From the NCBI GenBank assembly GCA_913058395.1, contig CAJXQI010000009.1, forward strand, positions 62,001-126,000: 64,000 nucleotides of DNA, read 5' to 3'. The notes beneath the pieces are model-generated. The model saw only the letters and a program-made list of their open reading frames with translations, was not told the origin of the DNA and ran no database searches. Shown here in pieces: positions 1-38,528 of this stretch. The stretch's first letter is position 1. Every line of letters starts with the position of its first letter. The translations under genes and the position numbers were made by a program. This stretch comes from an uncultured Colwellia sp. (GTDB lineage Bacteria > Pseudomonadota > Gammaproteobacteria > Enterobacterales > Alteromonadaceae).

Positions 1-10
1 ATTTACTGTT

Positions 11-337
11 TTACTTACTATTTTTTGTTGCTGATTCTTGCTGCTGATAATAGCTATTAACCTTATCTTTAAATACTTTCGGGTTAACCGGTGATGTTGC
101 TGGTAGTCGAATAGTTAACTCATGATCATCGATACTCAACGTTGAATTAAGCTCTTGCCACGGCGTAATATAAATCACTTTAGGCTGCTCTTGAGAGCCT
201 TGTACCTGTGTTTCTATAACGTAAGTTGCTGGCTTTTTAGTACTAGTTACTGCTTGCTGCGCATGAGCAGTTGATAAAACAAAAAATAACGAGATAACAC
301 TCAATATCGACACTGGCTTTTTAGCAAAAAGCTTCAT
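11..337 (-). CDS. small secreted protein of unknown function
   Basis: About 108 residues. The N-terminus has a clear Sec signal peptide (basic start, hydrophobic stretch, cleavage near AHA-QQ). The mature part is short and polar and I recognise no domain. I chose the ATG at 337 over the one at 352: GGGAGA lies at a good distance upstream of 337, and the longer start would overlap the preceding gene. The upstream TPR lipoprotein gene ends at 339, and its last codons double as this ribosome binding site, so the two are probably translationally coupled. It is the last gene of the leftward operon visible here. The function is unknown; an exported accessory part of the same envelope system is an inference from position only. 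Confidence 0.7.
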   Translation of the reverse strand: MKLFAKKPVSILSVISLFFVLSTAHAQQAVTSTKKPATYVIETQVQGSQEQPKVIYITPWQELNSTLSIDDHELTIRLPATSPVNPKVFKDKVNSYYQQQESATKNSK

Positions 338-338
338 C

Positions 339-1124
339 TTATTCTCCCGCATTTGTCTGTGCTAATTTTAACGATAATCCTGCCAACCAGCGCTGAACCT
401 GTTTATCATCTTGATGAATCATTAAATATGCTTGGTAGTGTTGTTGTGCTAATGCCAACTTTCCTTGGTACAGTTCAGCTAAAATCGCTAAATTTAAATG
501 TGCATCAGCATAGTTAGGTAAACTATTTAATGCCGCTAAATAGCTTTGCTCCGCTACTTGAAATTCTCCACGTTGACGCGCCAATACGCCATTTAAATTA
601 TGTGCATAAGGGCTAATTGGATTGACCTTTAGTGCTTGATTAATTTTTTCTTGAGCCAGCACTAATTGCTGTGTTTTTTGCGCGATTATCGCTTGATTTA
701 AATAGCTACCAGAAAGTTCTGGGCTTAGTACTATCACCTGAGAAAACAAATCATTTGCTTGTTGCCATTGCTCTGCTTGCATTGCCGATAGTGCGCGCTG
801 ATATAGCTCACTAATATTGCTTGGAATACTTTGCTGCATTTGTTTTTGCTTACGCTGGTATTCTAAGCTTTGCTCAGTCGGCTTAAATGCATCTTGCTGA
901 TTTGTATCGCTGGCTAGCTTATTGTCTGGCGGTGTAGACGACTTTTCTAATTCAGTTTCATCTACCAATGCTTTTGCTAATTTTTTCAACTCAGCTTGTT
1001 GCTCTTCAGCGCTTACAGCCTCGTCAGTGTCATTTATTGTCGAACACGCCGATAGCATCACCGTAAAAAGCCCGATAGCGATAGCATTTTTATGCTGCTG
1101 CAAATGGCGATTAAAATAACGCAT
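339..1124 (-). CDS. TPR-repeat lipoprotein
   Basis: About 261 residues. A lipobox (LSAC, Cys about residue 27) marks a lipoprotein. The C-terminal half carries several tetratricopeptide repeats, visible as the alternating A-L-Y-G/N pattern, for example around NPISPYAHNLNGVLARQRG and LPNYADAHLNLAILAE. TPR lipoproteins of this kind act as scaffolds, as PilF does for secretins. The ATG at 1124 is preceded by GAGG six bases upstream and fits better than the ATG at 1157, which would overlap the upstream gene by about 47 bases. It still overlaps that 1084-residue TPR gene by 14 bases, so the two are coupled. A PilF-like pilotin role is possible, but no pilus or secretin gene is in the window. Confidence 0.75.
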   Translation of the reverse strand: MRYFNRHLQQHKNAIAIGLFTVMLSACSTINDTDEAVSAEEQQAELKKLAKALVDETELEKSSTPPDNKLASDTNQQDAFKPTEQSLEYQRKQKQMQQSIPSNISELYQRALSAMQAEQWQQANDLFSQVIVLSPELSGSYLNQAIIAQKTQQLVLAQEKINQALKVNPISPYAHNLNGVLARQRGEFQVAEQSYLAALNSLPNYADAHLNLAILAELYQGKLALAQQHYQAYLMIHQDDKQVQRWLAGLSLKLAQTNAGE

Positions 1125-4100
1125 AAATAACCTCTGGCTGCTTTTCAGTTTTATCAAATTTCGCTGGCTCTAACGTGGCAAGTGCAATAAAGCTTTTCTT
1201 AATCCATTCATCATATAAACCTTGCCAAGCGCGTTCAGCATTATTGCTATATAACTCGATCGCTTTTTCTTCAAAAGGATAAGCTAATTCTTCCAACAAA
1301 ATGCTATATTCTTCTGCCGCCAATTCATCAAGCCCTTTTGGTAGTTGCGATGCTAAAACATCAGCGGCTAATAGTTGGTACATACTGGCCAACTGATAAT
1401 TCGCTTTCGGCACAAACTCAGCTAAACCAAAACCAAACACTTGCTGGTAATAACTAACCGCCTGCTTTAATGACTTTTGCTTGCGCTTCAAGCTTTTATT
1501 AAGTGGTAATGTCAACTTAGCCGCATTAAAGCTTTGTTGATGTGCGCGACCAAGTTCATATGCCGCCATTGACACTAAGTATGTTGAACGCTGCTGCACA
1601 GCTAACTCAAGATTAATATTTGATGAGTTGGTGACACTGGTTTTATGTGAGCTTAATAGCTTTCGGTACCAGAAATAACGTTTATTTGGCTCATTGGTTT
1701 CGCGATAAAACTCTGACATTTTAAAACGCACTTCTTGCGCTATTGCAAAAGGCTCTGGATAGCTATGTGCATAAGTTCGAAAGTGGATAATAGCTTTTTC
1801 AATATCTTTAGCTTTTAGGTAGTTTTCTGCGATGCTGTATTGCAGTTCACGTTTTAGCTCAGTCGAGTCAGCAGTTTTTTGCATAATAATTAACTGTTCA
1901 GCTGCTCGATCATATTGCGCCAATTGTTGATAGCTATCAGCCAATTTTGCAGGAATACTAATGCTATATTCATGACTTGGGAATTGCTGCTGAAATGCTA
2001 ACAATACTGAAACAGCTTTACCCCAATGTTGATTGCTCAATAATAAGTTGGCAGCATCAAATTCGGCATTTGCGCGGTAACTCGCTTTCGGCGTAACGTT
2101 ACCAAGGCGCAGCCAATGTTCTATGGCTAATTCCGGATCGTTTTCTTTAGCCGCTTGTCCCTGCAGATAAATACTCGATGCAATTAGCTCATTGATTTCA
2201 TAAACTTTGGCCTTATCCGCTTTTGATTTAACAGCCTTACCGCTGTTTTTCTGACTGACAAAATTTAACGCCAACAAGTAACTCTGTTCTGCTGAGGAAT
2301 ATTGCTGCTGTTGATAGAAGCTATTGGCTTTAAGTTGGCTAGCAATTTGAACTTGCTTAAAAGCAGTAGTTGAAAGCTTAGCCTTTATCGTTGCCATGGC
2401 ACTTGGCAAAGTGTTCGACGTAATATCATAGTGACTTAAGATAAAGTCACTATAAAAATGTACGTTATCAAAGTCATCGCTTGCAAATGAATACTGCGCG
2501 GCTTGGCTTGCCAATACTTTAGCACGCTCATCATTAGGGTAATTAACAACAAAAGCGCGGTCTAATTCTGCACGTTGATTAATAAGTACAGTTTGCTCTG
2601 ACTCTTGTGCCGACAATAATAGTTTACGTATGGTTAATGTTGTCGCATATGCCGCAGCTTGCTTTATCTGTGCGTGCTTTTCGCTTAACTCAACAGTAAC
2701 GTTTGTTTGTTCAATCACTTGGCTATTCACTTCAGCGCTACCGGTAACATTACCGTAGGCCAAATATTGATAACTGGTAAGGGCATTTTGATAATGCTGA
2801 GCCTCAAAACTAGCATCAGCATAAAGCGACTCTTCTGCAATTAAATCAATCTTCGCTGCTGCAATAGTTTCTGGATAGTTATCTTGTGTAAGTTTAACTA
2901 TTTCAAGGTAGCCACCCAACCAGTTTGCGGCGTTGGCAAAAGCGGAAATTTTAGTTTCTGGCGTTTTGCTGTCTTGAGCATAGGCATACAAACGACGACT
3001 ACGTTGTTCGCTAAATTGTAATAACGACGGAATAACTTCTTGCTGTTGCTCGGGGCTAGCTAACGGCCAAAAATCACTATTAAGGCCATACTGTTCAACA
3101 TAGCCTTGTTGCAAAGTTCGCACTTGTGGATGGTCACCACGCTTTTTAGCCATAGCAATTAGCGCTAAACTAAAACGAGTAGACCAAATATTACTTGGGT
3201 TACGCTGTATATAGGCTTGGTAAGTTAATTCAGCATCGTGATCAAGCTTTTTCTCTATTAGGAATGATGCAAGCGCTTTAAACAATACATGTTCAAGTGC
3301 AGCAACATGCTGATTTTCTTCGGTTAACGGCTGATAGCTATCGAATAATGCAATTAGGCTTTGTACTTGTTCTTGTTGACTCAATGAAATAGTTAAAATA
3401 CGTAAAGTATCACCGACTAAACTTTGCTTGGACTGACTCAGTTGAGCAAAATCATCATCACTCGCTGCGCGCAGCTCTTCATTATCAAATTGTTGATACT
3501 TAGCAACAATACGTTCTTGTGAAGTTTTTATGATTAGCTGTTCTCGAATAAGCTCCGATAAAACCTTCATAAACTCTTGGTCGGCCTTAACCAAGTTATT
3601 GGCTTTAAATTGCGACCAACCCGACATATAAATACTATTTAAACGATACTTTTCATTCTGCTCTGCCTTTAATACTCTTTGATAAGCGGCTAATGCATTG
3701 CTGTAATCTTGTTGGCTGTAATAAATTTCAGCTTGTCGAAATGCTAGTTCCGCCAAGTGCTGAGTTTGCGGATAAAGTGCCACGAGTTGCTGAGTTATTG
3801 CTAAGCTTTTGGCTAATTCACCTTGTAAGTCGTAGGCTTTAGCTAGCTGATAATATAGCTTTTCATTCTCAGGACGGTTCGGGTAACGCTTTAACAGCCC
3901 TTGATAATCAGAGATTAATTTAGCTAGCAATACATCAGAGCTTTTTGCATCAAGTTCCGTTAAGCCAAATTCTTGAAAGTATTCAGTATCTAGCTCAACC
4001 AGACGATAATTAATTTGCGCTCGCACATTCGTATCTGGTTCTAGCGTTAGCATAGCTTGATAGATTTCAGCTAACTTAGCACTGCGAATTTTTTTCGATA

Positions 4101-4365
4101 ATCGTTGTTTAACAAGTTGCTCTTGCTCAAGTTTATCGTCTTCGTTAGCTTGCTGAATCGACTTTGCTAAGTCAGCTAAACTATCACGCTTCACGGTTGA
4201 TTGGTTTGTTTCTGGTGTCGTGCTATTTTCATCATCAGGAAATAACTGACATGCGACCAAAGAAAGTGCTAATAAATGCACGCTGGCGACTTTGCCAAAT
4301 TGCGCTAAACCGCTATGCGCCTTTAACAAACCTTTATTCCCTGAACTAGTTGCAGCAATTGGCAT
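1111..4365 (-). CDS. large TPR-repeat lipoprotein, 1084 aa
   Basis: The N-terminus has a lipobox (LVAC, Cys about residue 39), so this is probably an outer-membrane-anchored lipoprotein. Most of the remainder is helical TPR-type repeat, for example KLYYQLAKAYDLQGELAKSL followed by repeats near AELAFRQAEIYYSQQDYSNALAAYQRVL, with further sets near the middle and C-terminus. The arrangement resembles YbgF/BamD-like scaffolds but is far longer. Its ATG overlaps the stop of the upstream gene by one base (TAATG), a sign of coupling. AGGAG lies ten bases before the start. TPR solenoids bind proteins, so a scaffold role in the envelope complex encoded by this operon is likely but inferred. I cannot assign a named family. 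Confidence 0.75.
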   Translation of the reverse strand: MPIAATSSGNKGLLKAHSGLAQFGKVASVHLLALSLVACQLFPDDENSTTPETNQSTVKRDSLADLAKSIQQANEDDKLEQEQLVKQRLSKKIRSAKLAEIYQAMLTLEPDTNVRAQINYRLVELDTEYFQEFGLTELDAKSSDVLLAKLISDYQGLLKRYPNRPENEKLYYQLAKAYDLQGELAKSLAITQQLVALYPQTQHLAELAFRQAEIYYSQQDYSNALAAYQRVLKAEQNEKYRLNSIYMSGWSQFKANNLVKADQEFMKVLSELIREQLIIKTSQERIVAKYQQFDNEELRAASDDDFAQLSQSKQSLVGDTLRILTISLSQQEQVQSLIALFDSYQPLTEENQHVAALEHVLFKALASFLIEKKLDHDAELTYQAYIQRNPSNIWSTRFSLALIAMAKKRGDHPQVRTLQQGYVEQYGLNSDFWPLASPEQQQEVIPSLLQFSEQRSRRLYAYAQDSKTPETKISAFANAANWLGGYLEIVKLTQDNYPETIAAAKIDLIAEESLYADASFEAQHYQNALTSYQYLAYGNVTGSAEVNSQVIEQTNVTVELSEKHAQIKQAAAYATTLTIRKLLLSAQESEQTVLINQRAELDRAFVVNYPNDERAKVLASQAAQYSFASDDFDNVHFYSDFILSHYDITSNTLPSAMATIKAKLSTTAFKQVQIASQLKANSFYQQQQYSSAEQSYLLALNFVSQKNSGKAVKSKADKAKVYEINELIASSIYLQGQAAKENDPELAIEHWLRLGNVTPKASYRANAEFDAANLLLSNQHWGKAVSVLLAFQQQFPSHEYSISIPAKLADSYQQLAQYDRAAEQLIIMQKTADSTELKRELQYSIAENYLKAKDIEKAIIHFRTYAHSYPEPFAIAQEVRFKMSEFYRETNEPNKRYFWYRKLLSSHKTSVTNSSNINLELAVQQRSTYLVSMAAYELGRAHQQSFNAAKLTLPLNKSLKRKQKSLKQAVSYYQQVFGFGLAEFVPKANYQLASMYQLLAADVLASQLPKGLDELAAEEYSILLEELAYPFEEKAIELYSNNAERAWQGLYDEWIKKSFIALATLEPAKFDKTEKQPEVIYALF

Positions 4366-6749
4366 TATTCATCAACTCCTTCGCTGCTAATAACATCGTC
4401 AACTTCATTTGGTAAATCAGCTACTAACTTTTCTGCGCTAATTTCCTTTTTATCATTTATTAGAAAATTGTCATTTTTTGCAATATCGATTTTTTTAAAC
4501 TCTTCCAATATTTTTGCCATAGCTCGACGACTATGATGTAAGTAATAATTTAAGCTTTGGCGTTGTTCAGCAATGAAAGCTAACAAATCATCTTGAATAT
4601 TCTCATTGGTTGCGTTGCCTAATGCTGCTACCGAGTGTTTCAGTCGTAAGCTGTCTTGGGCAATTATCTGTTGTCTTTGCTTCAATTTTGGCAAGTCTAA
4701 GCCTGCTTTACTGAGCGAGCCTAAATCAAACTCAGCATCAATAGAATTAAGCATTTCACTGCCAATTGCAGTGTCACTACCTTTATTCACTAACTGCTGA
4801 ATCGCAGTTACCTGATTCATTTGCTGCTGTAATTTAGCGAGTAACTTATCTAACTGCTTTAGTTGTGTTTGATGTTGCCACAAGCGCTGTGGAAATTTCT
4901 GTTGTAGTTGCCAAGTAAGCGCACCTTCAACACGGTTCAAACGCTGTTGGTATTTGGGTACTTTCTTTTTGTAGCGCTCATTGTTTGCCATGGCGCTTAA
5001 AACACTTTTACTCTTTGCAATACGTTGTAGCCATTCTTGTTGCTGGGCCGAGGCAAATACTTTAGCGTCCGCGTGCATTTTTGCTTCATTCAATCGATGA
5101 GCGAGTTGATCTCGACTATTTTGCAATTTAACAATTTGGTTTTGATATTTTTGTGTTTGTTGCTGGGCAATAATTCTAGCTTGGCGACGCTCGTTTAACA
5201 CAATGGCGTAATCTAACCATTGCACTTGTTGTTGTTGTTGCGCTATTTGTTTTGTTAATTCGTCAAGCTCACTCGCTTTATCGAACTGCCCAGTTAATTT
5301 AACGCTGGCAATGGCTTTTTCCCACCATACAGATGCAAGCAACGCTTTATCGCTCTTAGATGCAAAATCGCCAGTAACGGTAACAGGATTCGCGATTAGC
5401 TGTTGTTCAAATTCAGTTAAACTCGTAAGTTGCTGCTGATATTTACTTTCCAACTGTAGATATTGATTGAGCGCGGTATCAAGATCTCTTTGTATTAGGT
5501 ATTGACGAGCTAATAACACATCAGCTTGCCAGCCTAGATAACTAGCTGGGTAACGTGTCGATAATAAACTAAAAATAGCTTTTGACTCTGGGTAATGTTG
5601 AGTTTGTAAACTTGCATAAGCAAACAAAAACAATGCTTGCTCGGTAAAAGGGCTATTTTGTGGGAAGTTGGCTAATTCTTTATAAGCTAATGAATATTGC
5701 TCTTGCTCGACATAAAGTTGAGCGAGTAAAAGACTGGCATAATCTTGTAATGATTGTTTTTCATGTGCTGATTCATCGATATTTTGCAGGCTAGCAGTGT
5801 TATCGTTTGAAAGTGCTTCACTGGAAAACAATTGCTGCCAAAAGCTTTGCTCTGGTGCTTGCCAGCTCATTAACTTTAACTTAACTAATGCTTTCTCAGC
5901 ATTTTCAACGTCTTTTTGTTCAATATGTAGTAGAGCTGTATTCAGTAAAATATAAGCATCAGCCTGTTGAGTTTTTAATTCACTATTTTCTAATGGCATT
6001 GCCATTTCAAGGTGCAGATTCGCTGGCTGAGGCCAATATGCTAGCTGACTTAAAATGTGATATTGCTGATAATAGCCCTCAGGTAAATGATTAAGTTTCG
6101 CTAACGTTTGCTGAGCACGAGCTTTTTGTTGTTGGCTAATTTGTTGTTCAGCTAATTGCAACAAGGCAACGGCTAATAAATCCTGAGAAGCGAAGTAGTC
6201 GAAACGCTCTCCCGACTTTTGTTCAGCTTTTGATAGCGCTGAGCTATTTTGAACTGAATTAGGTGATAATGTCTGCGACAATTTATTGGTGATGCTCGTT
6301 AGGTTTTTTTCCGCTTCGCGATACAAACCTAACGATACTTGTAAACCTGCTTCAAATAACAATGCGTTGTCATTAACAACCGGCAAACGAGCTTTGTTAT
6401 AAGTCAATTGTCGTAGCGCTAATTCTGGCTGCCCTTGAAAGTAATGAAATAAGGCTTTGCGATAAAGTTTTTTCGCTAGTTTTTCAGGCTCAGCAACGTG
6501 AAATGCATATTCATCATTTGGTTGGTAATCAGTTGGTGCTTGAAGCTCAGTTTTAGAAGTCGTTGAAAGCTGTACTTCAGTTTCTAGGCCACTAAACGCT
6601 GTTGCTGAGCTAGACATACTTAATAATGCTAACAGTGATAACGCAGGTGAAAGTCGCCCATCCAATAATCGAATATTTCGTTTCACGCTAGCAACCTGCT
6701 TAGTCACTATTAAATTGATTTTTTTTCTACTGCCAAACGTCATCGTCAT
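4365..6749 (-). CDS. exported TPR / coiled-coil protein, about 794 aa
   Basis: The protein has a basic N-terminus and a hydrophobic stretch ending near SSSATAFSG, read as a signal peptide. TPR-like repeats follow in the first half (FHYFQGQPELALRQLTYNKARLP region and later AYASLQTQHYPESKAIFSLLSTRYP). A long Gln/Lys-rich coiled coil covers roughly residues 510-680. I chose the ATG at 6749, with AGG nine bases upstream. An ATG at 6788 overlaps the upstream gene and has its AGGA touching the start codon. Its stop overlaps the ATG of the next TPR lipoprotein gene. Together with that neighbour it looks like a structural pair. The function is unknown. Confidence 0.7.
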   Translation of the reverse strand: MTMTFGSRKKINLIVTKQVASVKRNIRLLDGRLSPALSLLALLSMSSSATAFSGLETEVQLSTTSKTELQAPTDYQPNDEYAFHVAEPEKLAKKLYRKALFHYFQGQPELALRQLTYNKARLPVVNDNALLFEAGLQVSLGLYREAEKNLTSITNKLSQTLSPNSVQNSSALSKAEQKSGERFDYFASQDLLAVALLQLAEQQISQQQKARAQQTLAKLNHLPEGYYQQYHILSQLAYWPQPANLHLEMAMPLENSELKTQQADAYILLNTALLHIEQKDVENAEKALVKLKLMSWQAPEQSFWQQLFSSEALSNDNTASLQNIDESAHEKQSLQDYASLLLAQLYVEQEQYSLAYKELANFPQNSPFTEQALFLFAYASLQTQHYPESKAIFSLLSTRYPASYLGWQADVLLARQYLIQRDLDTALNQYLQLESKYQQQLTSLTEFEQQLIANPVTVTGDFASKSDKALLASVWWEKAIASVKLTGQFDKASELDELTKQIAQQQQQVQWLDYAIVLNERRQARIIAQQQTQKYQNQIVKLQNSRDQLAHRLNEAKMHADAKVFASAQQQEWLQRIAKSKSVLSAMANNERYKKKVPKYQQRLNRVEGALTWQLQQKFPQRLWQHQTQLKQLDKLLAKLQQQMNQVTAIQQLVNKGSDTAIGSEMLNSIDAEFDLGSLSKAGLDLPKLKQRQQIIAQDSLRLKHSVAALGNATNENIQDDLLAFIAEQRQSLNYYLHHSRRAMAKILEEFKKIDIAKNDNFLINDKKEISAEKLVADLPNEVDDVISSEGVDE

Positions 6750-6775
6750 ATATATCAGCCTGTAAGCAAAACGCC

Positions 6776-7342
6776 TTACAGTAACCATTCCTCAACAACT
6801 ACTTTCGCGCGATAATCTTGCGTTTGATCTTCTATTTTAAGCTCAAGCATGATGGCATCGTCTTCTTTAACAAATTGATAATTTGCTGCACGTTTAACGG
6901 GTCTTTTTTCATTGTCGTAACCAATAAAAATTGCCGTTAGTTCATGTTCACCTTTTTTCAAATTACCTTGATATAGCCCTTGAATTCCACCTTCTTCTAA
7001 AGCTTTCCGTTGTCGTTCGGTATAAAGAAAACCGGCAACATCTTCATCATCAATTTTCAGCTCTACGCTGTCGAGGGTAAAGAATTTACCAATATCAACA
7101 GAAACAAAAACGGCGATTTGTGTGCTGGCAGGAAACAGTAAGTCTTCTTCCAAAATAAACAATTCACGGTTTAGCTTTAACACTTGTTGCTTAATGTCTT
7201 CTAACTCATTTGCTACTGCACTGCTTTCTTGTGCAGGCATATTTTTAGCCACGTTGTCTTGAGCATTACTTTGCGTAACAAACACGGCTGTTGATAAGAA
7301 GATAAACAGCAGGCTATAAATTGTTGTGAATGTTTTTTTCAT
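6776..7342 (-). CDS. secreted protein of unknown function with coiled-coil start
   Basis: 188 residues. The signal peptide ends near SNAQD. After it comes a short coiled coil (VANELEDIKQQVLKLNRELFILEEDLLFP), then a beta-rich domain that looks immunoglobulin-like (SVELKIDDEDVAGFLY, LKKGEHELTAIFIGYD). The phrase KGEHELTAIFIG resembles PEGA-type folds found in extracellular accessory proteins, but I cannot assign a family. AGGGA stands five bases before the ATG, so the start is secure. The gene lies about 100 bases after the DUF3570 gene and slightly overlaps or abuts the next TPR gene. It is probably periplasmic and part of the same complex. Confidence 0.7.
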   Translation of the reverse strand: MKKTFTTIYSLLFIFLSTAVFVTQSNAQDNVAKNMPAQESSAVANELEDIKQQVLKLNRELFILEEDLLFPASTQIAVFVSVDIGKFFTLDSVELKIDDEDVAGFLYTERQRKALEEGGIQGLYQGNLKKGEHELTAIFIGYDNEKRPVKRAANYQFVKEDDAIMLELKIEDQTQDYRAKVVVEEWLL

Positions 7343-7443
7343 TTTGGTCCCTAAAATAATACCGAAAATTTTTTCATTGGTGATTGTTTAATATTTACTT
7401 TCTAATAATGGCTAATAAACTATTTATCGCTCATCACTGTCAG

Positions 7444-8589
7444 CTAAAAATAAACGCTAACAAAAGCACGTACAACATTGGCAGAAAAGGCATAAAACGG
7501 TTCAGCACCTACGCCACCTTCCGCATTCGGATTACGAAAATTATTATAATTAAAACGTATGTGATCCCACTGTAAACTCACTTCTGATTGCCAATCATTG
7601 GGCGAAAAACTACTAGGAATTTTATAAGTAAGTCCCATCCCCAAGGTTAAATCATCAAAATCACTTAACTCTTTATCACGTGCCAAATAGTTTTGTGCAT
7701 CACGGTGGGCAAATAAATCACTGTAAAAGTTGGCAGCCGTTTGTTTGTAGTAACGTGCTTTAACTTCTAGCTCAAAACTGTCAGCAAACGGCTGTCGATA
7801 CATCAACTCAAAATCTTGTGAGTTAATATCCCAGCTGTCGGTAAAATAACGATAATGTGCGAATAACGCGGCTCGGTAAGGTAAGTAGTAGCTAGACGAT
7901 AGTTTCACTGCAAAAGAGTTACGAGTATTTGGGTAAATTTCTGATTGATAACTCACCCCCGCAGCATTGCTTGCATCAATAAAGCGTACCGTACGATATG
8001 GGTTATTTAAATAACCTTCATCAGCTACAGCTTCAATATTAATACCTGCTGTTAGGTTTCTCGTTAATATTTGATTAATGCCGGCACGAACACGATATTG
8101 TTCACTGTTTTCTAGAAAATTTTCGTCGCCGTTACGTTTGATTTCATTGTCACCAACGACTAAACCAAAGCTAACAGTGGTTAAATCACCAAAAGTGTCA
8201 TGAGAAATATTTAGTGCGACTGACTTTGCCAAATAATCACTTTCATCACTTTGACCAACGGTAATTGCCATCAGTGTTTTGTCATGCAAATATTCCGCGC
8301 CAAGTTGAAATTCTTTACGTTCTTCGGTGTAAGGGCTTGCTGTACTCATCACATCAACTGAGGCTGAGGAAATGGTATCAACATAGTAATAAGCTGAAAC
8401 TGCTAATGACTCACTTGCTTTTTTACGTACCAGTACTGCGGGGCCGTCGATAGACATGCCGCCACCTTGATAGCTGTGATACAGCACATCAGCCTGGTCT
8501 TTTTCAAGTACAGCTGCCTGAGTGTCTAGGGAAAACAAGACAAATATAGCAATGAATAAAATGCAAAATTTCTGATTAGTTACAACCAC
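7444..8589 (-). CDS. DUF3570 outer-membrane beta-barrel protein
   Basis: About 381 residues from a GTG at 8589, which has GGAGG five bases upstream. The longer reading from 8673 only runs over the DUF4266 gene. After a signal peptide (ending DTQAA) the mature start resembles DUF3570, with HSYQGGGMSIDGPAVLVRK near the N-terminus. The rest alternates amphipathic strands with aromatic residues, and the last residue is Phe (VRAFVSVYF), the usual beta-barrel C-terminal signal for BAM. DUF3570 proteins are commonly found beside DUF4266 lipoproteins and thioredoxin-like proteins, as here. The substrate is unknown. Transport or anchoring of a redox protein at the outer membrane is a guess. Confidence 0.8.
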   Translation of the reverse strand: MVVTNQKFCILFIAIFVLFSLDTQAAVLEKDQADVLYHSYQGGGMSIDGPAVLVRKKASESLAVSAYYYVDTISSASVDVMSTASPYTEERKEFQLGAEYLHDKTLMAITVGQSDESDYLAKSVALNISHDTFGDLTTVSFGLVVGDNEIKRNGDENFLENSEQYRVRAGINQILTRNLTAGINIEAVADEGYLNNPYRTVRFIDASNAAGVSYQSEIYPNTRNSFAVKLSSSYYLPYRAALFAHYRYFTDSWDINSQDFELMYRQPFADSFELEVKARYYKQTAANFYSDLFAHRDAQNYLARDKELSDFDDLTLGMGLTYKIPSSFSPNDWQSEVSLQWDHIRFNYNNFRNPNAEGGVGAEPFYAFSANVVRAFVSVYF

Positions 8590-8872
8590 AACCGCCTCCA
8601 CCACTACCTTCAGCACCACGACCTGATTCACGCGCTTCAAATACATGAGCAACATGGCGATTAGCAATACCATGGCGATTAGCTGACATTATAGGGTCGG
8701 CTAAATTTTGACGTTCGTATGGTTTTACCCAAGGCTTCACACCCATTTGCGCACAACCTGTTAAGGTCAAAAATGCAAAAGCAGCGCTAAGATGAATACA
8801 CATTCGCCACACTTTTTTGACACTCTGTGAAGGTAAAATCTGACCTTTTAGCAAGTGATATCTAGCTAACAT
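8576..8872 (-). CDS. DUF4266 lipoprotein with Gly/Cys-rich tail
   Basis: 98 residues. The signal segment ends in a lipobox (LTLTGC), and the mature part is only about 56 residues. It contains the DUF4266 hallmark VKPYERQNLADPIM and ends in a run of glycines with two cysteines (GGGGCGCN). The tail could bind a metal or a cofactor, or be modified; that is inference. The DNA of the Gly tail also forms the GGAGG ribosome binding site of the downstream DUF3570 gene, so the two genes overlap by 14 bases. The start at 8872 lies three bases after the TlpA stop. A later ATG at 8803 would still give a lipoprotein signal. The neighbours TlpA and DUF3570 are the usual partners of this family. Confidence 0.8.
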   Translation of the reverse strand: MLARYHLLKGQILPSQSVKKVWRMCIHLSAAFAFLTLTGCAQMGVKPWVKPYERQNLADPIMSANRHGIANRHVAHVFEARESGRGAEGSGGGGCGCN

Positions 8873-8874
8873 AA

Positions 8875-10894: not shown

Positions 10895-10922
10895 GCAACG
10901 TCCGTTGTTGGTAAATAACATT

Positions 10923-13616
10923 TTATGGCTCCGCCTGATAAAAAGGCGTGTTGTAATATTGACCACCGATATCTAACCATTCACTAAGTAGGCGTTGTTC
11001 GTCAAGCGATAACATATTTTGATGCACGCCACTGTTGAGCACTTCAAAGAATCGACCACTAGATTGCGCGCCATTGGTTGACAAAATATTAGCTACATTG
11101 ACCGTAGTCATAACGGGGATCGGTTGGCCATTCTCGTCTAAAACTAAATTGCCATCACCGTCTCGAACATAAACAGGGTCACCATTTCCGTCTAACAGAG
11201 GAATTTGTCTGTCAACAAGAATACCTTCAACGAGTTCTTGTTCAACATCACCAAAGAATAATTCTCGATAACTGGTTAAATGTGCAGGCTCGTCTGTTGA
11301 TGTCGATGAAGTTAAATCTAACTGCCCTGCAGGCACTTGTGCGGTGTTCTCAACATCTAAAACACTATGACAACTAATACATGTATTGTCTTGAATCTGC
11401 TCATTAGTAATTTCATCAAACACTAAACGTGGCTTTAACCATAATGGTGCTAAGTGCTCAGTGTAGTTAACTTGCAAACGACAATATGCCGTCCAATTTG
11501 TAAAACACTCACTTCCATTAGGCTTGGCCGTAGTGAGGTTTTGATAACTAATGGTTAATGCTGGGTTTAACGTAGCTGTTGCAGGATCACTCCAAATATC
11601 CAGATATTCTAAATCGCTGCTAAGCGCAGGTAAGCCAAGCGTTTTCTCAACTGTTTCTGCCATAGTTTGTGCAAAATCAGGTATCAATTGTGGATTTGTA
11701 TTAGGAAATGCAACACCGTCTGATACTGCTCCGGCATTGATACTCTCAGCTTGTGCAGCAATTCGACCATGTGGCAACTCGCTATTGCCGCTATGACAGC
11801 CATTACATTCAAGAGTTTCGCCGGGTTTAACCGTTAACCATTGGCTATGACGCCCACCAATACGCTGTCCGGCCTGATTTAGAATACTTAAGGCAAAAGG
11901 TACGTTTGCGGGTACTTTTACTTTTACTGAGCCGTCTGGTTGAATGGTGGTATAACCTAGAATTTCACGCATTAATTGTGCTCGACTGCGGCCAAAGTCA
12001 GTATTATCTAGGTCTTTCACCTCATCAGGTGGCATGGGTACACCACGAATTAAACGTAAAAAACGTGCAGGCCTTTGTTCTGCCGTTGTTTGTGTAGGGT
12101 TCATCGTTTGCGCCAGACCTTGTGGGCTTAAATCCACGCCATCAAAGTCATAAATGCTGCGGATATGAATGGCACCAGCTTGCTGATTGGCTAAATCAGC
12201 ATCAAGTTCACTACCAACAACTTTATCGGCAATAAACTCAGGTTTTACCTGCGCTTCTTGCATCACAATAGCTTCAGTTAATATATGGTCTTGGCTTGGA
12301 CTAGCAACTAACTGCTGAGTGTTCTCACTTTGGTTAAATAACCAAAGTTCATAAAATGGTGTTGCTTGTTCTATATTGTCTTGGGCTAGCTCTTCAGCAG
12401 TTAATTGCCCACAAGCACGAGTTTCTTGCTCGATAACAACACGGCATAAATCCCAGCTCGCTAAATAACGTTGAGTACTGTCAGGTAATGGAAATAAATG
12501 ATTAATTCGTCCTGCGGGCGATAAATTTTCTGAAAAATTATAATCCGCAACACTGCGATCAAAAAGATCAGATATTGCAGTTTCTTCAATCGGATTATTT
12601 GCCGCTATCGGTTGATATTGATCGGTAAAGTCATCAAGGTTAAGAATAATTGGGCGTTTTTGAAAATTACTTTCTTCACTACCATTTAACAATAATAAAA
12701 TTTTTCCATTCGGCAATTGCTGTGGCTTAATAAATTCAATATTGGCATTACTTTCATCAATACTCAGCTGATGCGAATGCCAACCATATATCAACTGATT
12801 TTCTGTACCGTCTGGTCGCATACGATAAAGGTTAATTTGATTGTTGCCCCCCATAGCGTCCCAGCGGCTATATAAAATATGGCCATCTTGTAAAACTAAA
12901 GGGTAAAAATCATGGCTGAGGTTAAATGTCAGCTGTTCGATATCAGAGCCATCGGCTTGCATGATATGAATATTTAGCGTCGCCAGTTCAGAGCGCTCAT
13001 TATTAGCGGTGTATTGCGGTTTACCTTCATCGAGTAAAATGGCACGGGACAAACGTTGACGGTTCGAGGCAAAAATAATACGACCATCAGGTAAGAAAGA
13101 TGCCATTAAGTCATCACCTTGTTCGGCAATAACATCATTACTAACGACACGCGTTAACAGTTTTGTACTTTGCTGGTAACGCCAAATATTCCATTTTGGT
13201 TGTTCATTTTCATCTGCATCCTCAACTTCAGGTGCTCGAATAGAAACTAAGAATTCTTGTCCATCAGGCGACACTGAGAGATCTCGTATATCGATGAATT
13301 GCTCAATAATGTCAGTGCTGTCATCAGTGGAAAAAATATTAGCCGTTAATTCAAGCGCAAGTGCTTCAGGCGTAGCGTTAGCTTTTAAATTTAATTTTGC
13401 CCCTGGATTGAATTGAGTGGGTTCAAAAATAGGAAAGCTAGCCGCTTGATTAATTTCTTCAGAGGGATCGGTATCTAAACTTCGCTCGATGTATACAACA
13501 GGGAATTCTTCCAAGACTGGATCTGTATTTTCTTCACTTGGCGCGGTATCTGAGTTACAACCTGTGTTCAATAAAACAAAAAGCGCAAGTCCGCTAAAGC
13601 TTATTTTCGGATTCAT
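10923..13616 (-). CDS. HzsA-like c-type cytochrome lipoprotein with TolB-like propeller
   Basis: About 897 residues. The lipobox is LNTGC. Residues 110-330 resemble a TolB/WD-type propeller (DLSVSPDGQEFLVSIRAP, ASFLPDGRIIFASNRQ, PDGTENQLIYGWHSHQ). The middle resembles the HzsA-related family (RLIRGVPMPPDE through QWLTVKPGETLECNGCHSG). Two haem-binding motifs are present, CNGCH at about residues 604-608 and CISCH at about 746-750. The name refers to similarity to the hydrazine synthase alpha subunit; no other hydrazine genes are present, so hydrazine chemistry should not be assumed. The ATG at 13616 has GGGAAA upstream. It is the first gene of the leftward operon and probably an extracytoplasmic redox protein. 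Confidence 0.75.
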   Translation of the reverse strand: MNPKISFSGLALFVLLNTGCNSDTAPSEENTDPVLEEFPVVYIERSLDTDPSEEINQAASFPIFEPTQFNPGAKLNLKANATPEALALELTANIFSTDDSTDIIEQFIDIRDLSVSPDGQEFLVSIRAPEVEDADENEQPKWNIWRYQQSTKLLTRVVSNDVIAEQGDDLMASFLPDGRIIFASNRQRLSRAILLDEGKPQYTANNERSELATLNIHIMQADGSDIEQLTFNLSHDFYPLVLQDGHILYSRWDAMGGNNQINLYRMRPDGTENQLIYGWHSHQLSIDESNANIEFIKPQQLPNGKILLLLNGSEESNFQKRPIILNLDDFTDQYQPIAANNPIEETAISDLFDRSVADYNFSENLSPAGRINHLFPLPDSTQRYLASWDLCRVVIEQETRACGQLTAEELAQDNIEQATPFYELWLFNQSENTQQLVASPSQDHILTEAIVMQEAQVKPEFIADKVVGSELDADLANQQAGAIHIRSIYDFDGVDLSPQGLAQTMNPTQTTAEQRPARFLRLIRGVPMPPDEVKDLDNTDFGRSRAQLMREILGYTTIQPDGSVKVKVPANVPFALSILNQAGQRIGGRHSQWLTVKPGETLECNGCHSGNSELPHGRIAAQAESINAGAVSDGVAFPNTNPQLIPDFAQTMAETVEKTLGLPALSSDLEYLDIWSDPATATLNPALTISYQNLTTAKPNGSECFTNWTAYCRLQVNYTEHLAPLWLKPRLVFDEITNEQIQDNTCISCHSVLDVENTAQVPAGQLDLTSSTSTDEPAHLTSYRELFFGDVEQELVEGILVDRQIPLLDGNGDPVYVRDGDGNLVLDENGQPIPVMTTVNVANILSTNGAQSSGRFFEVLNSGVHQNMLSLDEQRLLSEWLDIGGQYYNTPFYQAEP

Positions 13617-13773
13617 GCTACTTTCCCGTGTAATTATTCGCCGACAACAATATTTAAAATCAATAAACAACAATATAACAAAAATGTAACCTATGCTAGC
13701 CTATAGCACTTGATGGCTATTAAATAAGTAAAAGCAAACAAATCAAATAGCTATAATAATTTATAATAAAAAG

Positions 13774-13804
13774 TGACAGTGGTTGACCACTGTCAGTATT
13801 TTTT
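13774..13804 (+). terminator. hairpin with T-run (attenuator or terminator)
   Basis: Arms TGACAGTGG and CCACTGTCA pair perfectly around a four-base loop and are followed after three bases by six T. In the + direction this is a textbook intrinsic terminator, yet no gene precedes it on that strand. It could attenuate the rightward operon leader, end antisense transcription, or be an operator. Confidence 0.55.
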
Positions 13805-13838
13805 ACATAATTACATTTCGGATACAAAGTACTACATC

Positions 13839-13850
13839 CTTAGTACTAAG
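13839..13850. promoter_or_regulatory. perfect 12-base palindrome, candidate operator
   Basis: CTTAGTACTAAG is a perfect palindrome and is embedded in further AGTAC repeats (13827-13853). It lies about midway between the divergent operons, a suitable position for a dimeric regulator. No regulator gene is in the neighbourhood. Confidence 0.4.
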
Positions 13851-13974
13851 TACAACAGTTATTTTTTATTAAATAAAACGGTATATTTTTCTTGAAAAAT
13901 GACGTATACCTAAAAAAGAGCATGCCAAACTGATTAAAAATCAAACAGAGCATGTGTAAAAATCACTATATTTT

Positions 13975-13987
13975 CGACATGATGTCG
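13975..13987. promoter_or_regulatory. inverted repeat before the rightward operon
   Basis: CGACAT and ATGTCG flank a single G, and a T-rich run follows. It lies 38 bases before the start codon of the cytochrome gene. It could be an operator or part of a leader structure. Confidence 0.35.
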
Positions 13988-14024
13988 GAATATTTTTTCT
14001 ACTCAACATCTTCAAGGAGGTTGT

Positions 14025-15317
14025 ATGAAGGTGTTACTTTGTAACGTCATTTCGCCTAGTGTATGCAAATCCACAAAGACATTTTTTTTGCAAACAACTA
14101 AATTACTATTAAAAAAAAGAACATTACTAATATCAGCTATTTGCTCTGTATTTTTATTCACTACACCATTCACTTTCGCAGGCACATTAGAGCAAGCTAA
14201 ACGTCTTCATGATCGTATTGCGGGGGTGCCTGCAAGTGCTGAAACACTATCAGAAATGGAAGCATTATTAGTCGATGGGAAACCAATTGAAGCTGCTTAT
14301 GTTGCAATGGAATCGAAACATTTTTATAACACGACTTTAAAACTATTTTCGACACCTTGGACAAATAAAGAGCAAGATATATTTTTTCCACTCAACGATT
14401 ATAGTGCAACAATTATTGGCATGGTGCGTGACGACATCGACTTTAGACAAATTCTACAAGCCAATATGACTTATGTTGGAAAAAGTGACTTAGGGTTGCC
14501 AGCTTATAACAACAATAATAACGACCACTATGTTGCGATTGAAGATAGAGCACTGGATTTATCAACCGACCTTGTACAAGTTACTCAGTCAGGTCTCAAT
14601 GGCTTACCAGCTACCGCTACCGCGGGCGTATTAACAAGTCGAGCCGCCGCAAAGGCCTTCTTTTATCTTGGTACCAACCGAGCAATGCTCAGGTTTACCT
14701 TAATGAACCATTTATGTACTGACCTTGAGCCCATTAAAGACAATACCTTACCTCCAGACAGAATTCGCCAAGATGTCAGTCGTAGTCCGGGTGGCGATAG
14801 CCGTTTATTTATTAATAACTGTTTAGCTTGTCATAGTGGTATGGACCCGCTTGCACAAGCATTTGCTTATTATGATTATGACTTTAATGCTGATAATGAT
14901 CCCGCAGCAGAGAGTGGTAATATTGCTTATAACCAAGACGGCACAACTGATAGCGTTACAGGTTCACGAGTACAAGCAAAATATTTTAATAACAATACAA
15001 CTTTTCCATTTGGCTTCGCAACGCCGAATGATCAATGGAGTAATTACTGGCGCCATGGTGATAACAGAAGTTTAGGTTGGGATCCGGCACTTAGTGGTCA
15101 AGGCAGCGGTATGAAGTCGCTAGGTGAAGAACTAGCTAACAGCCAAGCCTTCGCACAATGTCAGGTTAAAAAGGTCTTCAATAATGTTTGTTTACGTGAT
15201 GCCGAAAGTAACGCTGACTTAAATCAAATATCAACAACCACCGCTTCTTTTAAAGAAGGTGGTTATCAATTAAAACAAGTTTTTGCCGAAATTGGCAATT
15301 ACTGTATGGGAGAGTAA
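14025..15317 (+). CDS. exported DUF1588/DUF1592-like c-type cytochrome
   Basis: 430 residues. A long basic N-terminus leads into a hydrophobic segment ending near FTFAGT, taken as a signal peptide. One haem site, CLACH, lies at about residues 266-270 in the context HSGMDPLAQAFAYYDYD. This is the pattern of the DUF1588 region of planctomycete-type cytochromes (xxCxxCHxxMDPLGxAxExxD), preceded by GVLTSRAAAKAF and a cysteine-containing LCTDLEPI segment as in that family. AAGGAGG stands four bases before the ATG. Its TAA overlaps the next ATG. Together with the two genes downstream it forms a three-gene operon resembling the cytochrome/DUF1501 pairs of planctomycetes. The redox partner and substrate are unknown. 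Confidence 0.7.
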   Translation: MKVLLCNVISPSVCKSTKTFFLQTTKLLLKKRTLLISAICSVFLFTTPFTFAGTLEQAKRLHDRIAGVPASAETLSEMEALLVDGKPIEAAYVAMESKHFYNTTLKLFSTPWTNKEQDIFFPLNDYSATIIGMVRDDIDFRQILQANMTYVGKSDLGLPAYNNNNNDHYVAIEDRALDLSTDLVQVTQSGLNGLPATATAGVLTSRAAAKAFFYLGTNRAMLRFTLMNHLCTDLEPIKDNTLPPDRIRQDVSRSPGGDSRLFINNCLACHSGMDPLAQAFAYYDYDFNADNDPAAESGNIAYNQDGTTDSVTGSRVQAKYFNNNTTFPFGFATPNDQWSNYWRHGDNRSLGWDPALSGQGSGMKSLGEELANSQAFAQCQVKKVFNNVCLRDAESNADLNQISTTTASFKEGGYQLKQVFAEIGNYCMGE

Positions 15318-17752
15318 TGATGAATAAACTTAAATTACTCACCTGTTTATTGATGGTTAATTATTTAACTGCTTGTGGTGATAGTGAAGTTGAAACTCAA
15401 CCACCAGTGCAACCAGACACGCCTAATAGCACATATACAGGCCCTGCTCCGCAAACCGAAGATATTCAAAAATATAAAACGGCGCTATTTGACAATGTTG
15501 CCAGCAGTGATCGCTGTGGAGCTTGTCATAAGGTCGACGACCAAGCGCCCTATTTTGCGCGCTTTGATGATGTTAACTTGGCTTATGCAGCAACAACGCC
15601 GTTAGTTGATCTATCAACACCAGCACAATCAAGGTTAGTAGAAAAAGTTGCCGGCGGGCACAACTGTTGGTTAGACAGTGATCAAGCCTGTGCTGATACT
15701 ATGGTGCAATGGATAAAAATTTGGTCTGATGACCGCGTCAGCACAACAACAGAAATTGAACTAACGGCACCTATCATTCGAGAGACCGGCAGTAGCCGAA
15801 GCTTTCCTGACAGCACAACTTTATTTAGCTCACATGTTTACCCAATTGTCAGCCAATATTGTTCAACCTGTCATAGTGAAACCGCAAGTGCCGCACAATC
15901 ACCCTTTTTTGCTAGCGAAGATATTGATGTTGCTTATCAAGCAGCACAACGAGTCATAAACCTTGACCAAGCCGAACTATCGCGTTTAGTTATTAGGCTC
16001 GGCAGCGAATTTCATAACTGTTGGGGTGACTGTCAAGCAAATAGCAATACTATGCTGGCAGGCATACAAGCCTTTAGTGAACAAATACCGGTTAACCAAG
16101 TTGATGAAGATATGGTTATCTCAAAAGCGTTAAGGCTCACCGACGGTATTGTTGCTTCAAATGGTGGTCGCTTTGAAAATGATACTATCGCCCTGTATCA
16201 GTTTAAAACAGGGAATGGCAATATTGCCTACGACACATCAGGAATTAGCCCTGCAGCAAATTTATCTTTAACAGGTGATATTGAATGGCTAGGCAGTGGC
16301 GGCTTAATTTTTAATAATGGCAAAGCGCAAGCTAGTACCGCCAACAGTAAGAAATTACATGACTTAATTACTGCCACTGGTGAATTTTCGCTAGAAGCTT
16401 GGTTAACGCCTGCCAATGTCACACAAGAAGGTCCTGCTCGTATTGTCAGTTACTCTGCTGGTGATAACGAACGAAACTTTACCTTAGGGCAAAGCCAATA
16501 CAACTACGACTTTATGCTGCGTAATCAAGCAACATCACTTAACGGTGAGCCAGCTTTAAGCACGCCTGATGCTGATGAAGTTTTGCAAGCAACTTTGCAG
16601 CATGTGGTGCTAACTTACAATGCCACTGAAGGTCGAAAAATTTATGTCAATGGCAAGCTGATTGAAATAACAGATCAAGAAATTGCACCATTAGCATCAT
16701 GGGACAATAGCTTTGCTTTAATTTTGGGGCGAGAAGCATCAAATAATCATATCTGGCAAGGTAACATTCGTTTGTTGGCATTATTTAACAAAGCGATGAC
16801 AGCAGAACAAATACAGCAAAACTTTGACGTGGGCGTTGGTGAACGTTACTACCTGTTATTTTCTATTGGTGATTTAATCGATTTACCTAATACTTTCGTG
16901 ATGCTTGAAATCAGCGAGTTTGATAATTACAGCTACTTATTTAGCCAGCCTTCTGTGGTCAACTTAGATCAACAAAGATTAACTACAGCACTACCAATTG
17001 AAGGACTAAACATTGGTATTAACGGTAAAGAAAGCGGGCAAAGCCAAGTTTATGCCAACTTAAGTAGGTCATTATCAACCGATGAATCTCTTGACGAACC
17101 ATTACTGCTATCAGGTTTAGGCACCATCATTGCCATTGAAAAAGGTGCTGAGCAAGATGAGTTCTTCTTATCATTTGAACGCTTAGGCGAACATACCAAT
17201 GTCAAAGTTGAAGGTGAATTAGTGGTGACAGCTGAAGTACCTGCTGACACAGAAAGTGCTGAAATTGGCATCAGAAATTTTGACGAGATTCATGCGAGTA
17301 TGAGCCAATTAACAGGAGTTTCCCAAGAACAAAGTAAAGTGTTTGGTGTTTATCAGTTAGTGCAGCGACAGTTGCCTAGCATTAATAATATTGAAACCTT
17401 TATTTCTGCCCAACAAATGGGGATTACTCAGTTGGCTATCGCGTACTGTGATACCGCCATTGAAGACGTTAATTTACGTTCTAACTGGTTTCCAAATATA
17501 GACTTTACCCTTGAACCAAATATTGCTTTATCAGCCAGTCAACGGGGACAATTTATTGACCCGCTACTCGCACAATTAATGCCGCTAGACGTTGCTAGCC
17601 AACCAACGAAAGTTGCGGTAAGCAATGAATTAAGCAACCTTATTGACCGTTTAGCTGTTTGTAATAGCAACTGTAACGCAGAACGCACCCGTACTATTGC
17701 AAAATCCAGCTGTGCTGCGGTTTTAGCCAGTGCTGTCACTTTGGTTCAATAG
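15317..17752 (+). CDS. two-haem LamG-domain lipoprotein
   Basis: 811 residues. The lipobox is LTAC (Cys 20). Two CxxCH motifs lie at residues 67-71 (CGACH) and 182-186 (CSTCH). Each is followed about 45 residues later by a similar HNCW segment, so the N-terminal half is an internal duplication of a cytochrome-like unit. A LamG/concanavalin-like domain covers about residues 290-510 (GEFSLEAWLTP, HVVLTYNATEGRKIYVNG, NNHIWQGNIRLLALFN). The last 300 residues are not recognised. The ATG overlaps the previous stop (TAATG). LamG domains bind sugars or proteins, so an outer-surface haem protein that contacts a ligand is plausible. Confidence 0.72.
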   Translation: MMNKLKLLTCLLMVNYLTACGDSEVETQPPVQPDTPNSTYTGPAPQTEDIQKYKTALFDNVASSDRCGACHKVDDQAPYFARFDDVNLAYAATTPLVDLSTPAQSRLVEKVAGGHNCWLDSDQACADTMVQWIKIWSDDRVSTTTEIELTAPIIRETGSSRSFPDSTTLFSSHVYPIVSQYCSTCHSETASAAQSPFFASEDIDVAYQAAQRVINLDQAELSRLVIRLGSEFHNCWGDCQANSNTMLAGIQAFSEQIPVNQVDEDMVISKALRLTDGIVASNGGRFENDTIALYQFKTGNGNIAYDTSGISPAANLSLTGDIEWLGSGGLIFNNGKAQASTANSKKLHDLITATGEFSLEAWLTPANVTQEGPARIVSYSAGDNERNFTLGQSQYNYDFMLRNQATSLNGEPALSTPDADEVLQATLQHVVLTYNATEGRKIYVNGKLIEITDQEIAPLASWDNSFALILGREASNNHIWQGNIRLLALFNKAMTAEQIQQNFDVGVGERYYLLFSIGDLIDLPNTFVMLEISEFDNYSYLFSQPSVVNLDQQRLTTALPIEGLNIGINGKESGQSQVYANLSRSLSTDESLDEPLLLSGLGTIIAIEKGAEQDEFFLSFERLGEHTNVKVEGELVVTAEVPADTESAEIGIRNFDEIHASMSQLTGVSQEQSKVFGVYQLVQRQLPSINNIETFISAQQMGITQLAIAYCDTAIEDVNLRSNWFPNIDFTLEPNIALSASQRGQFIDPLLAQLMPLDVASQPTKVAVSNELSNLIDRLAVCNSNCNAERTRTIAKSSCAAVLASAVTLVQ

Positions 17753-17774
17753 GCTAGATATCTAGGAATATATT

Positions 17775-19373
17775 ATGAAAAAAACTAAACATTATCATCC
17801 GGATGCGCCGTTATTATTTTCTGATCATAGCCGGCCAGTAAGTCGTCGTGACTTTATCTCATCTGGACTAAGAAAAGGTGCTGGCGTTGTTGCTGGCGCA
17901 TCGTTATTTAGCATGTTTGCTAATCCAAATAATGCTCATGCTACATTATCGCCAGATCTTGAAGCGCTTCGCGCCTCATGTGGCATTAACGTTCAAGGCG
18001 CAGGAAAAATACCATTTATTTCCTTCGATTTGGCCGGTGGGGCAAATATCGCGGGCTCTAACGTCTTGGTTGGTGGCGCAGGCGGGCAACTCGACTTTCT
18101 ATCAACAGGTGGTTATAACAAATTAGGTTTGCCTGGCGATATGGCACCTTCTATTGCCAACCCGAATGCCGACCAATCTGACTTTATTAATACTGAACTC
18201 GGTCTTGCCTTTCACTCTGACTCAGCATTTTTACGCGGTATTTTAGAGAAAACATCAGCCGATACTCGCAGTAAAATAAATGGCGCAGTAATTCCGAGTC
18301 GTTCAGATAACGATACTAGCAATAACCCACATAACCCAATGTACGCTATTGCAGCTGCTGGGGCTGACGGTTCACTTATGCCATTAGCAGGTTCTAGAAA
18401 CACCGAATCAGGTGGCAACTCTATGGCGCCCAGTCGCTTTATTGATTTAAGTAAACGACCTACAAAAATTGATCGCCCTACTGATGTGACCGGCTTAGTC
18501 GATGTTGGTGACTTATTTAGTTTATTGTCTCAAAGTGATGCAGTTGCCGTAATGGAAAGTATTCAAAGAGTTAGTTCGCAAAAGTTAGCTTCGGTAAATA
18601 CTCAAGTCACCCGTGATGCGGTGATTAAAGATTTAGTAAATTGTGGCTATGTGAAAAGTGCTGATTTGGCTGATCGTTTTGGTGATCCTAGCACGCTTAA
18701 CCCACTACTTGACCCCGACATTGTTGGCCCTGCTGGCATTTTCTCATTAGCAGAATTTGACAGCGAAAGTGAATTTAGTAAAACCTCATCAATTATGAAG
18801 TTAGTCGTCAACGGCTTTTCTGGTGCAGGTACCGTTACTATGGGTGGTTTTGATTACCATACTGGAGACAGAGCAACAGGTGAGCTACGAGATTTACGAG
18901 CCGGTCGTTGTATGGGCGCTTGTCTTGAATATGCTGCTAGACGCAACAAACCATTGATGATGTATGTGTTCAGTGACGGCTCAGTTGCCAGTAATGGCCG
19001 AATAGATGAATCAGAAGAAGGTAGAGGTAAAGGCGAATGGACTGGTGATAATTCATCAACAGGTGCATCTTTCTTTTTAGTGTTTAATCCAAACGGTCGC
19101 CCACAACTTAATGGCGCTGATGAAAATCAAATGGCGATGAGTCAGCAAATAGGTTTTATGCGCCCTGATGCGTCGGTAGACACTAGTTCGGCTCCATCAG
19201 CGAATAACGTCAACTTATTGGTAGAAACAGTATTACTGAACTATTTAGCCTTACACGGTGAACAAGGCAGCTTTACTGGCTTAGTGCCAGGACAAGGCTT
19301 GGGTAACAATACCTTACTCGATAGTTTAACAGCCTTTCAACCAATCGTTACCGGTACACTAAACCAAGTATAG
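17775..19373 (+). CDS. Tat-exported DUF1501-like protein
   Basis: 532 residues. The N-terminus holds a twin-arginine signal (SRRDFIS, Arg 24-25, then a mildly hydrophobic stretch ending NAHA). The body resembles the DUF1501 family in the alkaline-phosphatase/sulfatase-like fold, with a GGFDYHTG segment in the place of the usual GxDTH motif (about residue 360). Tat export suggests folding in the cytoplasm before translocation, perhaps with a metal. In planctomycetes DUF1501 genes pair with DUF1592-type cytochrome genes, which fits the neighbours here. AGGA lies about nine bases before the ATG. The enzymatic activity of DUF1501 is not established. Confidence 0.68.
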   Translation: MKKTKHYHPDAPLLFSDHSRPVSRRDFISSGLRKGAGVVAGASLFSMFANPNNAHATLSPDLEALRASCGINVQGAGKIPFISFDLAGGANIAGSNVLVGGAGGQLDFLSTGGYNKLGLPGDMAPSIANPNADQSDFINTELGLAFHSDSAFLRGILEKTSADTRSKINGAVIPSRSDNDTSNNPHNPMYAIAAAGADGSLMPLAGSRNTESGGNSMAPSRFIDLSKRPTKIDRPTDVTGLVDVGDLFSLLSQSDAVAVMESIQRVSSQKLASVNTQVTRDAVIKDLVNCGYVKSADLADRFGDPSTLNPLLDPDIVGPAGIFSLAEFDSESEFSKTSSIMKLVVNGFSGAGTVTMGGFDYHTGDRATGELRDLRAGRCMGACLEYAARRNKPLMMYVFSDGSVASNGRIDESEEGRGKGEWTGDNSSTGASFFLVFNPNGRPQLNGADENQMAMSQQIGFMRPDASVDTSSAPSANNVNLLVETVLLNYLALHGEQGSFTGLVPGQGLGNNTLLDSLTAFQPIVTGTLNQV

Positions 19374-38516: not shown

Positions 38517-38528
38517 TGCGTTTATCTT

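Follow-up and report, generated by a model that had tools for sequence, protein, structure and literature searches.

The Agl/Glt core of Gammaproteobacteria has been described as a functional complex whose role is unknown and which is not sufficient for motility, gliding being undocumented in most of its carriers according to the available part of that account (Luciano 2011, PMC3169522). The core has also been called a stand-alone basal transport machinery in the available part of a later study (Wartel 2013, PMC3858216), and redox partners go unmentioned in these portions of both papers. A second described system is the cluster of DUF3570, DUF4266, a thioredoxin and ApbE, in which DUF4266 carries a CxC tail and DUF3570 is a family of ApbE substrates (Meheust 2021, PMC8238504). 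The flavinylation motif is, according to a review, D-x-x-[S/T]-G-A-[S/T].

The locus described here is these two modules joined: an Agl/Glt-like core and a divergent DUF3570-DUF4266-thioredoxin-ApbE set, the latter enlarged with an HzsA-like dihaem lipoprotein, two barrels and an operon of three genes, the last of them for a Tat protein. Together they make a set of about 19 genes, conserved in marine bacteria, that joins an envelope motor related to that of Myxococcus gliding with haem, flavin and thiol proteins. An earlier note on this DNA had known of no named pathway with this combination. For the pairing, a search of the open literature found no paper linking Glt homologues with redox genes; the modules themselves both belong to described classes.

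Layout of the locus

The source DNA is from an uncultured Colwellia sp. (GCA_913058395.1, contig CAJXQI010000009.1, forward-strand positions 62,001-126,000), and this whole stretch of 64,000 nucleotides is the window to which our coordinates refer. Fourteen consecutive genes for exported proteins (11-19373) had been reported in it, and these are present as described: all 14 products have a hydrophobic N-terminal segment. Export signals were predicted by inspection and a simple script, without SignalP; export features are absent from most of the 31 other open reading frames checked in the window.

Eleven of the genes lie on the minus strand (11-13673) and three on the plus strand (14025-19373), separated by a gap of 350 bases. 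We read the minus-strand genes as an operon because most of them overlap or are only a few bases apart. The two divergent operons of the earlier note are seen in the layout, but their boundaries were drawn too tightly: the minus-strand operon runs past position 11 and the edge of the window into exbB-exbD-exbD-tonB (flanking stretch L005), stopping, as judged by eye, at lipB/lipA beyond tonB, and the note had omitted apbE, which lies to the right of the plus-strand operon on the opposite strand (19520-20530, minus; PF02424, 3e-80) and encodes an FAD:protein FMN transferase. The 14 genes are thus part of an 18-gene, two-operon locus of which apbE is the nineteenth member. Elsewhere in the window, positions 37560-44685 resemble by eye an operon of MoxR ATPase, von Willebrand and BatD-type genes.

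The motor genes

The left flank encodes an ExbB protein (PF01618, 2.8e-28), then two ExbD proteins (PF02472 twice) and a TonB-like protein of 322 residues. The last passes the AgmX/PglI C-terminal model NF033768 (52 bits against a cut-off of 40) and weakly matches the GltG tail; it falls short of TonB_C (TIGR01352; 16.3 bits, cut-off 27.1), and a Pfam scan gives no hit of any kind in it, an FHA domain included. ExbB motifs are kept in 61/61 sequences. At the membrane proton site, the first ExbD has Asn in 58/60 and the second Asp in 58/59. The two ExbD genes (14104-15224 of the flanking stretch) differ in this way nearly without exception in some 60 loci.

Within the window, the motor block continues with five minus-strand genes. 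The first encodes a small exported protein of 113 residues (11-352) that matches no family, occupies the position of Myxococcus gltF and has homologues likewise placed in 49 of the 80 named loci. It is followed by a GltE-like TPR lipoprotein (339-1157; TPR_2, 5.5e-9; predicted lipobox LSAC), which matches the GltE model NF033758 at 3.7e-7 and 29.5 bits, far below the 225-bit cut-off, and by a large GltD-like TPR lipoprotein (1111-4365; TPR_6, 1.1e-10; predicted lipobox LVAC), whose orthologues match only generic TPR families in an NCBIfam scan. Next come a GltC-like exported helical/TPR protein of 807 residues (4365-6788), syntenic in 52/80 loci, and an exported protein of 188 residues that heads the block (6776-7342), has no family, is conserved in position and is also present where the redox block is absent. 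Three TPR proteins, two of them lipoproteins, had been claimed. Both lipoproteins are borne out, while the third, the GltC-like protein, is only weakly TPR-like (ANAPC3, 4e-4). TPR architecture, gene order and signal peptides would fit orthology of these three to Myxococcus GltC, GltD and GltE. No gltH, gltI, gltJ or gltK was recognised within the cluster.

The redox genes

The Pfam and NCBIfam matches in the cluster (DUF3570, DUF4266, AhpC-TSA/ResA-like, TIGR04565, SH3, TPR and HZS_alpha) agree with the three barrels, TlpA protein, DUF4266 lipoprotein and HzsA-like protein that had been named from the sequence. The TlpA/ResA-type thioredoxin (8875-9411, minus; AhpC-TSA, 3e-31) has the motif WCGPC, conserved as WC[GA]PC in 90/90 sequences, and the DUF4266 protein (8576-8872, minus; PF14086, 4e-19; predicted lipobox) ends in GGCGCN in 90/90. 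An outer-membrane barrel of family TIGR04565 (OMP_myx_plus; 9492-10163, minus) scores 162 bits (cut-off 60) and found no match in a PDB profile search. Beside it lies a protein with an SH3 domain and a barrel (10133-10966, minus; SH3_4, 1.9e-8; OMP_b-brl, 1.7e-5; weak TIGR04565). A C-terminal Phe or Tyr is constant in two of the three barrels, the TIGR04565 barrel having Phe in 90/90, and is present in 82/90 sequences of the SH3 barrel.

The third barrel is a DUF3570 protein of the form we call type 2 (7444-8673, minus; PF12094, 6e-44). Its start at 8673 is probably placed too far upstream, since it overlaps the DUF4266 gene. An AlphaFold2 model gives a confident barrel, mostly of strands (pLDDT 81), and its Foldseek matches are porins and other outer-membrane transporters. 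With the types aligned, the first flavin site reads D/ExxS/TGAS in type 1 and DxxS[S/G]AS in type 2, which is the one near-canonical ApbE site of the Colwellia protein. Among 89 type-2 sequences, 57 have SSAS, 30 SGAS or TGAS and one SAAS, and the D, S, A and S are kept in nearly all. The second site is degenerate, mostly STAS or ATAS with the Gly almost always missing, and type-2 sequences thus lack the two [S/T]GA[S/T] sites expected of a flavinylated DUF3570 system. Judged by these motifs, flavinylation of type-2 DUF3570 is plausible but unproven; by strand counting, site 1 should lie within a loop facing outward.

A close ApbE homologue is found within the cluster or at its border in variously arranged loci (L037, L156, L183-L186, L188 and L191), and because it recurs in such different places we take it to belong functionally rather than by chance. 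Across 40 loci from relatives, DUF4266 marks two kinds of locus, a small TlpA-DUF4266-DUF3570-ApbE cluster like those of Meheust 2021 and, at 13 loci, the large composite. The Colwellia genome holds both, its small cluster being of the classical type 1 with canonical TGAS (L040, G000:C13:120867-135453).

Haem proteins and the divergent operon

The five CxxCH sites in three proteins noted earlier are split 2+1+2 and are invariant in orthologues. Two belong to the HzsA-like lipoprotein (10923-13673, minus; lipobox NTGC, predicted by eye), in 89/89 sequences, one to DivA in 85/85 and two to DivB in 75/75. The HzsA-like protein has a propeller and an HZS_alpha middle domain (PF18582, 1e-14), and by sequence profile it aligns in three stretches with the alpha subunit of hydrazine synthase (PDB 5c2v, 7e-15). 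In the published structure of that enzyme, haem alpha-I has a Tyr ligand four residues after the His of CxxCH. The corresponding position in the HzsA-like alignment is Ser, Thr or similar; with this ligand missing and the partner subunits absent from the cluster, we rejected an identity as hydrazine synthase.

DivA (14025-15317, plus) is an exported monohaem protein with weak matches to DUF1585/DUF1588 (PSD2/PSCyt3), and DivB (15317-17752, plus; predicted lipobox) is a dihaem lipoprotein with a laminin-G-like domain (Laminin_G_3, 1e-21). DivC (17775-19373, plus) was correctly recognised as a Tat protein: the script finds SRRDFI, and the RR motif is present in 50/50 orthologues. Its description as DUF1501-like fails, since four orthologues gave no match to that profile at E<=10. 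DivC ranks with the best conserved members of the set, at 56-70% identity across families, yet it has no Pfam, NCBIfam or PDB match, and a structure prediction from partial homologues (mean pLDDT 36.5) is not interpretable.

Conservation across relatives

The layout recurs, at some 30-70% identity, in 13 relatives belonging to several families of the order. Scanning named genomes yielded 80 loci, whose carriers include Colwellia, Shewanella, Thalassotalea, Catenovulum, Ferrimonas, Paraglaciecola and Rheinheimera as well as Arsukibacterium, Pseudoalteromonas, Microbulbifer, Pseudomaricurvus, Candidatus Thiodiazotropha and others. The redox block is found in about 76 of the 80, and the order hzs-sh3-omp-tlpA-4266-3570 with a divergent DivA-DivB-DivC is nearly universal. 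Directly behind it, in about 50, lies the motor block in the order 188-gltC-gltD-gltE-113-exbB-exbD-exbD-tonB. In Microbulbifer, Thiodiazotropha and Pseudomaricurvus the motor block is seemingly missing and in fact sits across DivABC; in some other genomes it is more distant or elsewhere. Over 60-90 loci the gene order, the haem motifs, the GGCGCN tail and the Asn/Asp pair of the motor are near-invariant. A search for further conserved neighbours returned only lineage-specific housekeeping genes.

Neighbourhood comparison had been proposed as a check on whether the homologues are co-located, and they are. Since the full set occurs in constant order across many genera, we conclude that it is one conserved unit and not a chance neighbourhood. 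Within the genus, DivC is found in two of 13 sampled genomes, the Colwellia genome itself counted, and the system is therefore accessory there and probably moves horizontally.

Co-occurrence of motor and redox block

We sampled 229 genomes drawn evenly across the Gammaproteobacteria, scoring the redox block by a strong TIGR04565 match. A GltD profile matches in 55 of them. The redox block is present in 37, all of which have GltD, against 18 of the 192 genomes without the block; the Fisher test gives p = 2e-29, a figure to be read as a strong association only, as genomes are not independent. A protein with the AgmX tail is found in 35/37. The TIGR04565 matches adjoin DUF3570 at 37 of 38 places and HZS_alpha at 31, and motor and redox genes are linked within 26 kb at 27.

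Several genomes have two or three GltD paralogues, and because 18 carry GltD without the redox block, the motor must have other roles. Such Glt cores (L163-L178, L181 and L182) adjoin housekeeping genes or genes for other exported proteins. One locus (L179; G245:C23, 1247-15600) has a paralogous gltC-gltD-gltE-113 set immediately behind type VI secretion genes, among them those for TssC, TssF and ClpV, and judged by gene sizes another (L180; G194:C5) is arranged alike; exbB, exbD and tonB are not alongside the set. In a GltD tree, 64 redox-linked sequences form one well supported group and eight are scattered among unlinked ones. Redox linkage changes at least three times (six by parsimony), and since several changes are needed, the partnering is not that of one simple clade.

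Discussion

A structure of many proteins in the periplasm and outer membrane, as first proposed, is still the best reading of these genes, which may carry electrons or oxidise an extracellular compound. The purely redox picture missed ApbE and the motor: an ExbB/ExbD/TonB-like proton channel encoded just outside the window points to an energised Agl/Glt-type machine and not a passive conduit. Given the strict co-occurrence of the parts, the simplest account is that they form a single machine whose motor acts on its redox proteins. We think it probable that the locus encodes a proton-driven, envelope-spanning machine of Agl/Glt type, specialised for a redox assembly at the surface.

In such a machine, proton flow through ExbB and the ExbD pair, with Asp in one and Asn in the other, would move the TonB/GltG-like protein, and the TPR proteins GltC, GltD and GltE would pass this motion to the outer membrane and its barrels. 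The motor may thereby move, assemble or gate the surface redox set. Electrons from thiols could leave TlpA for the CGC tail of DUF4266, go on to FMN attached by ApbE to the DUF3570 barrel, and finally reach the haems at the cell surface, those of the HzsA-like lipoprotein, DivA and DivB. We offer more tentatively, and with some doubt, the idea that the mechanical work of a Glt-type motor is coupled to outer-membrane electron transfer through this thiol-flavin-haem relay, which would make the locus a new class of machine and give a function to a large share of the orphan gammaproteobacterial Glt cores. No DsbD, inner-membrane quinol oxidase or other quinol-linked electron source is found among the conserved neighbours of the cluster, and this speaks against a complete respiratory conduit; the product is more likely an enzyme or assembly at the surface.

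Alternatively, the machine might export or assemble surface haem proteins with no electron relay at all, TlpA and DUF4266 serving both disulfide handling and haem attachment, and DUF3570 being merely a pore. The abundant cysteines of DivA, DivB and the HzsA-like protein (9, 14 and 11), including invariant Cys of the last outside its haem motifs, would suit this account, as would the degenerate flavin sites. We nevertheless consider it rather unlikely, given the repeated occurrence of ApbE inside the cluster and the near-constant D, S, A and S of site 1. That the redox set is a passive electron conduit or surface oxidoreductase, with the motor a separately functioning neighbour, seems to us improbable: the blocks can indeed be reordered or be separated by as much as about 26 kb, and the motor stands on its own in 18 genomes, but every sampled genome with the redox block keeps the motor, and at most linked loci the two are adjacent or in one operon. 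Still less probable is an apparatus for surface motility or adhesion resembling Myxococcus gliding. The motor core and TIGR04565 barrels are similar to Agl/Glt parts, but it is redox proteins that have been added and conserved, the neighbours include no conserved adhesin-like gene, and the available part of the earlier work has the core insufficient for gliding (Luciano 2011, PMC3169522). A conventional TonB-type system energising nutrient uptake, to which ExbB, ExbD and a TonB-like protein might point, was rejected as scarcely credible, given two different ExbD genes, an AgmX tail with TonB_C below cut-off, and no TonB-dependent (plug-barrel) receptor domain among the cluster proteins.

Our preferred reading of an energised machine bears on a gammaproteobacterial Glt core that has lacked an assigned role since 2011. 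The redox block accompanies GltD in two thirds of its sampled carriers, no sampled genome has the block without GltD, and so near-constant a partner gives a testable clue to function, making the role of this complex a concrete question that can be addressed in culturable Shewanella or Colwellia species. The DUF3570/DUF4266 redox family in turn gains a possible energised partner, and the notion of cargo-specialised Agl/Glt/Nfs motors is widened to redox proteins.

Set beside the known systems, the HzsA-like protein has a propeller, middle domain, C-terminal segment and haem motif alignable with hydrazine synthase alpha, but is a lipoprotein in a cluster without beta or gamma subunit. Like the clusters of Meheust 2021 (PMC8238504), the locus contains DUF3570, DUF4266 with a CxC tail, a thioredoxin-like protein and ApbE; unlike them, it has altered type-2 flavin sites and adds the HzsA-like protein, two barrels, DivABC and the motor. 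With the Agl/Glt core of Gammaproteobacteria and Geobacter it shares an AglR-type ExbB, two ExbD proteins, a GltG-like TonB protein and exported TPR proteins resembling GltC, GltD and GltE, all encoded together, although Myxococcus GltG has a cytosolic FHA domain that the Pfam scan does not find in the Colwellia protein. Whereas that core is described, in the available parts of its accounts, as standing alone, the Colwellia-type locus is fused to a redox block or always accompanied by one.
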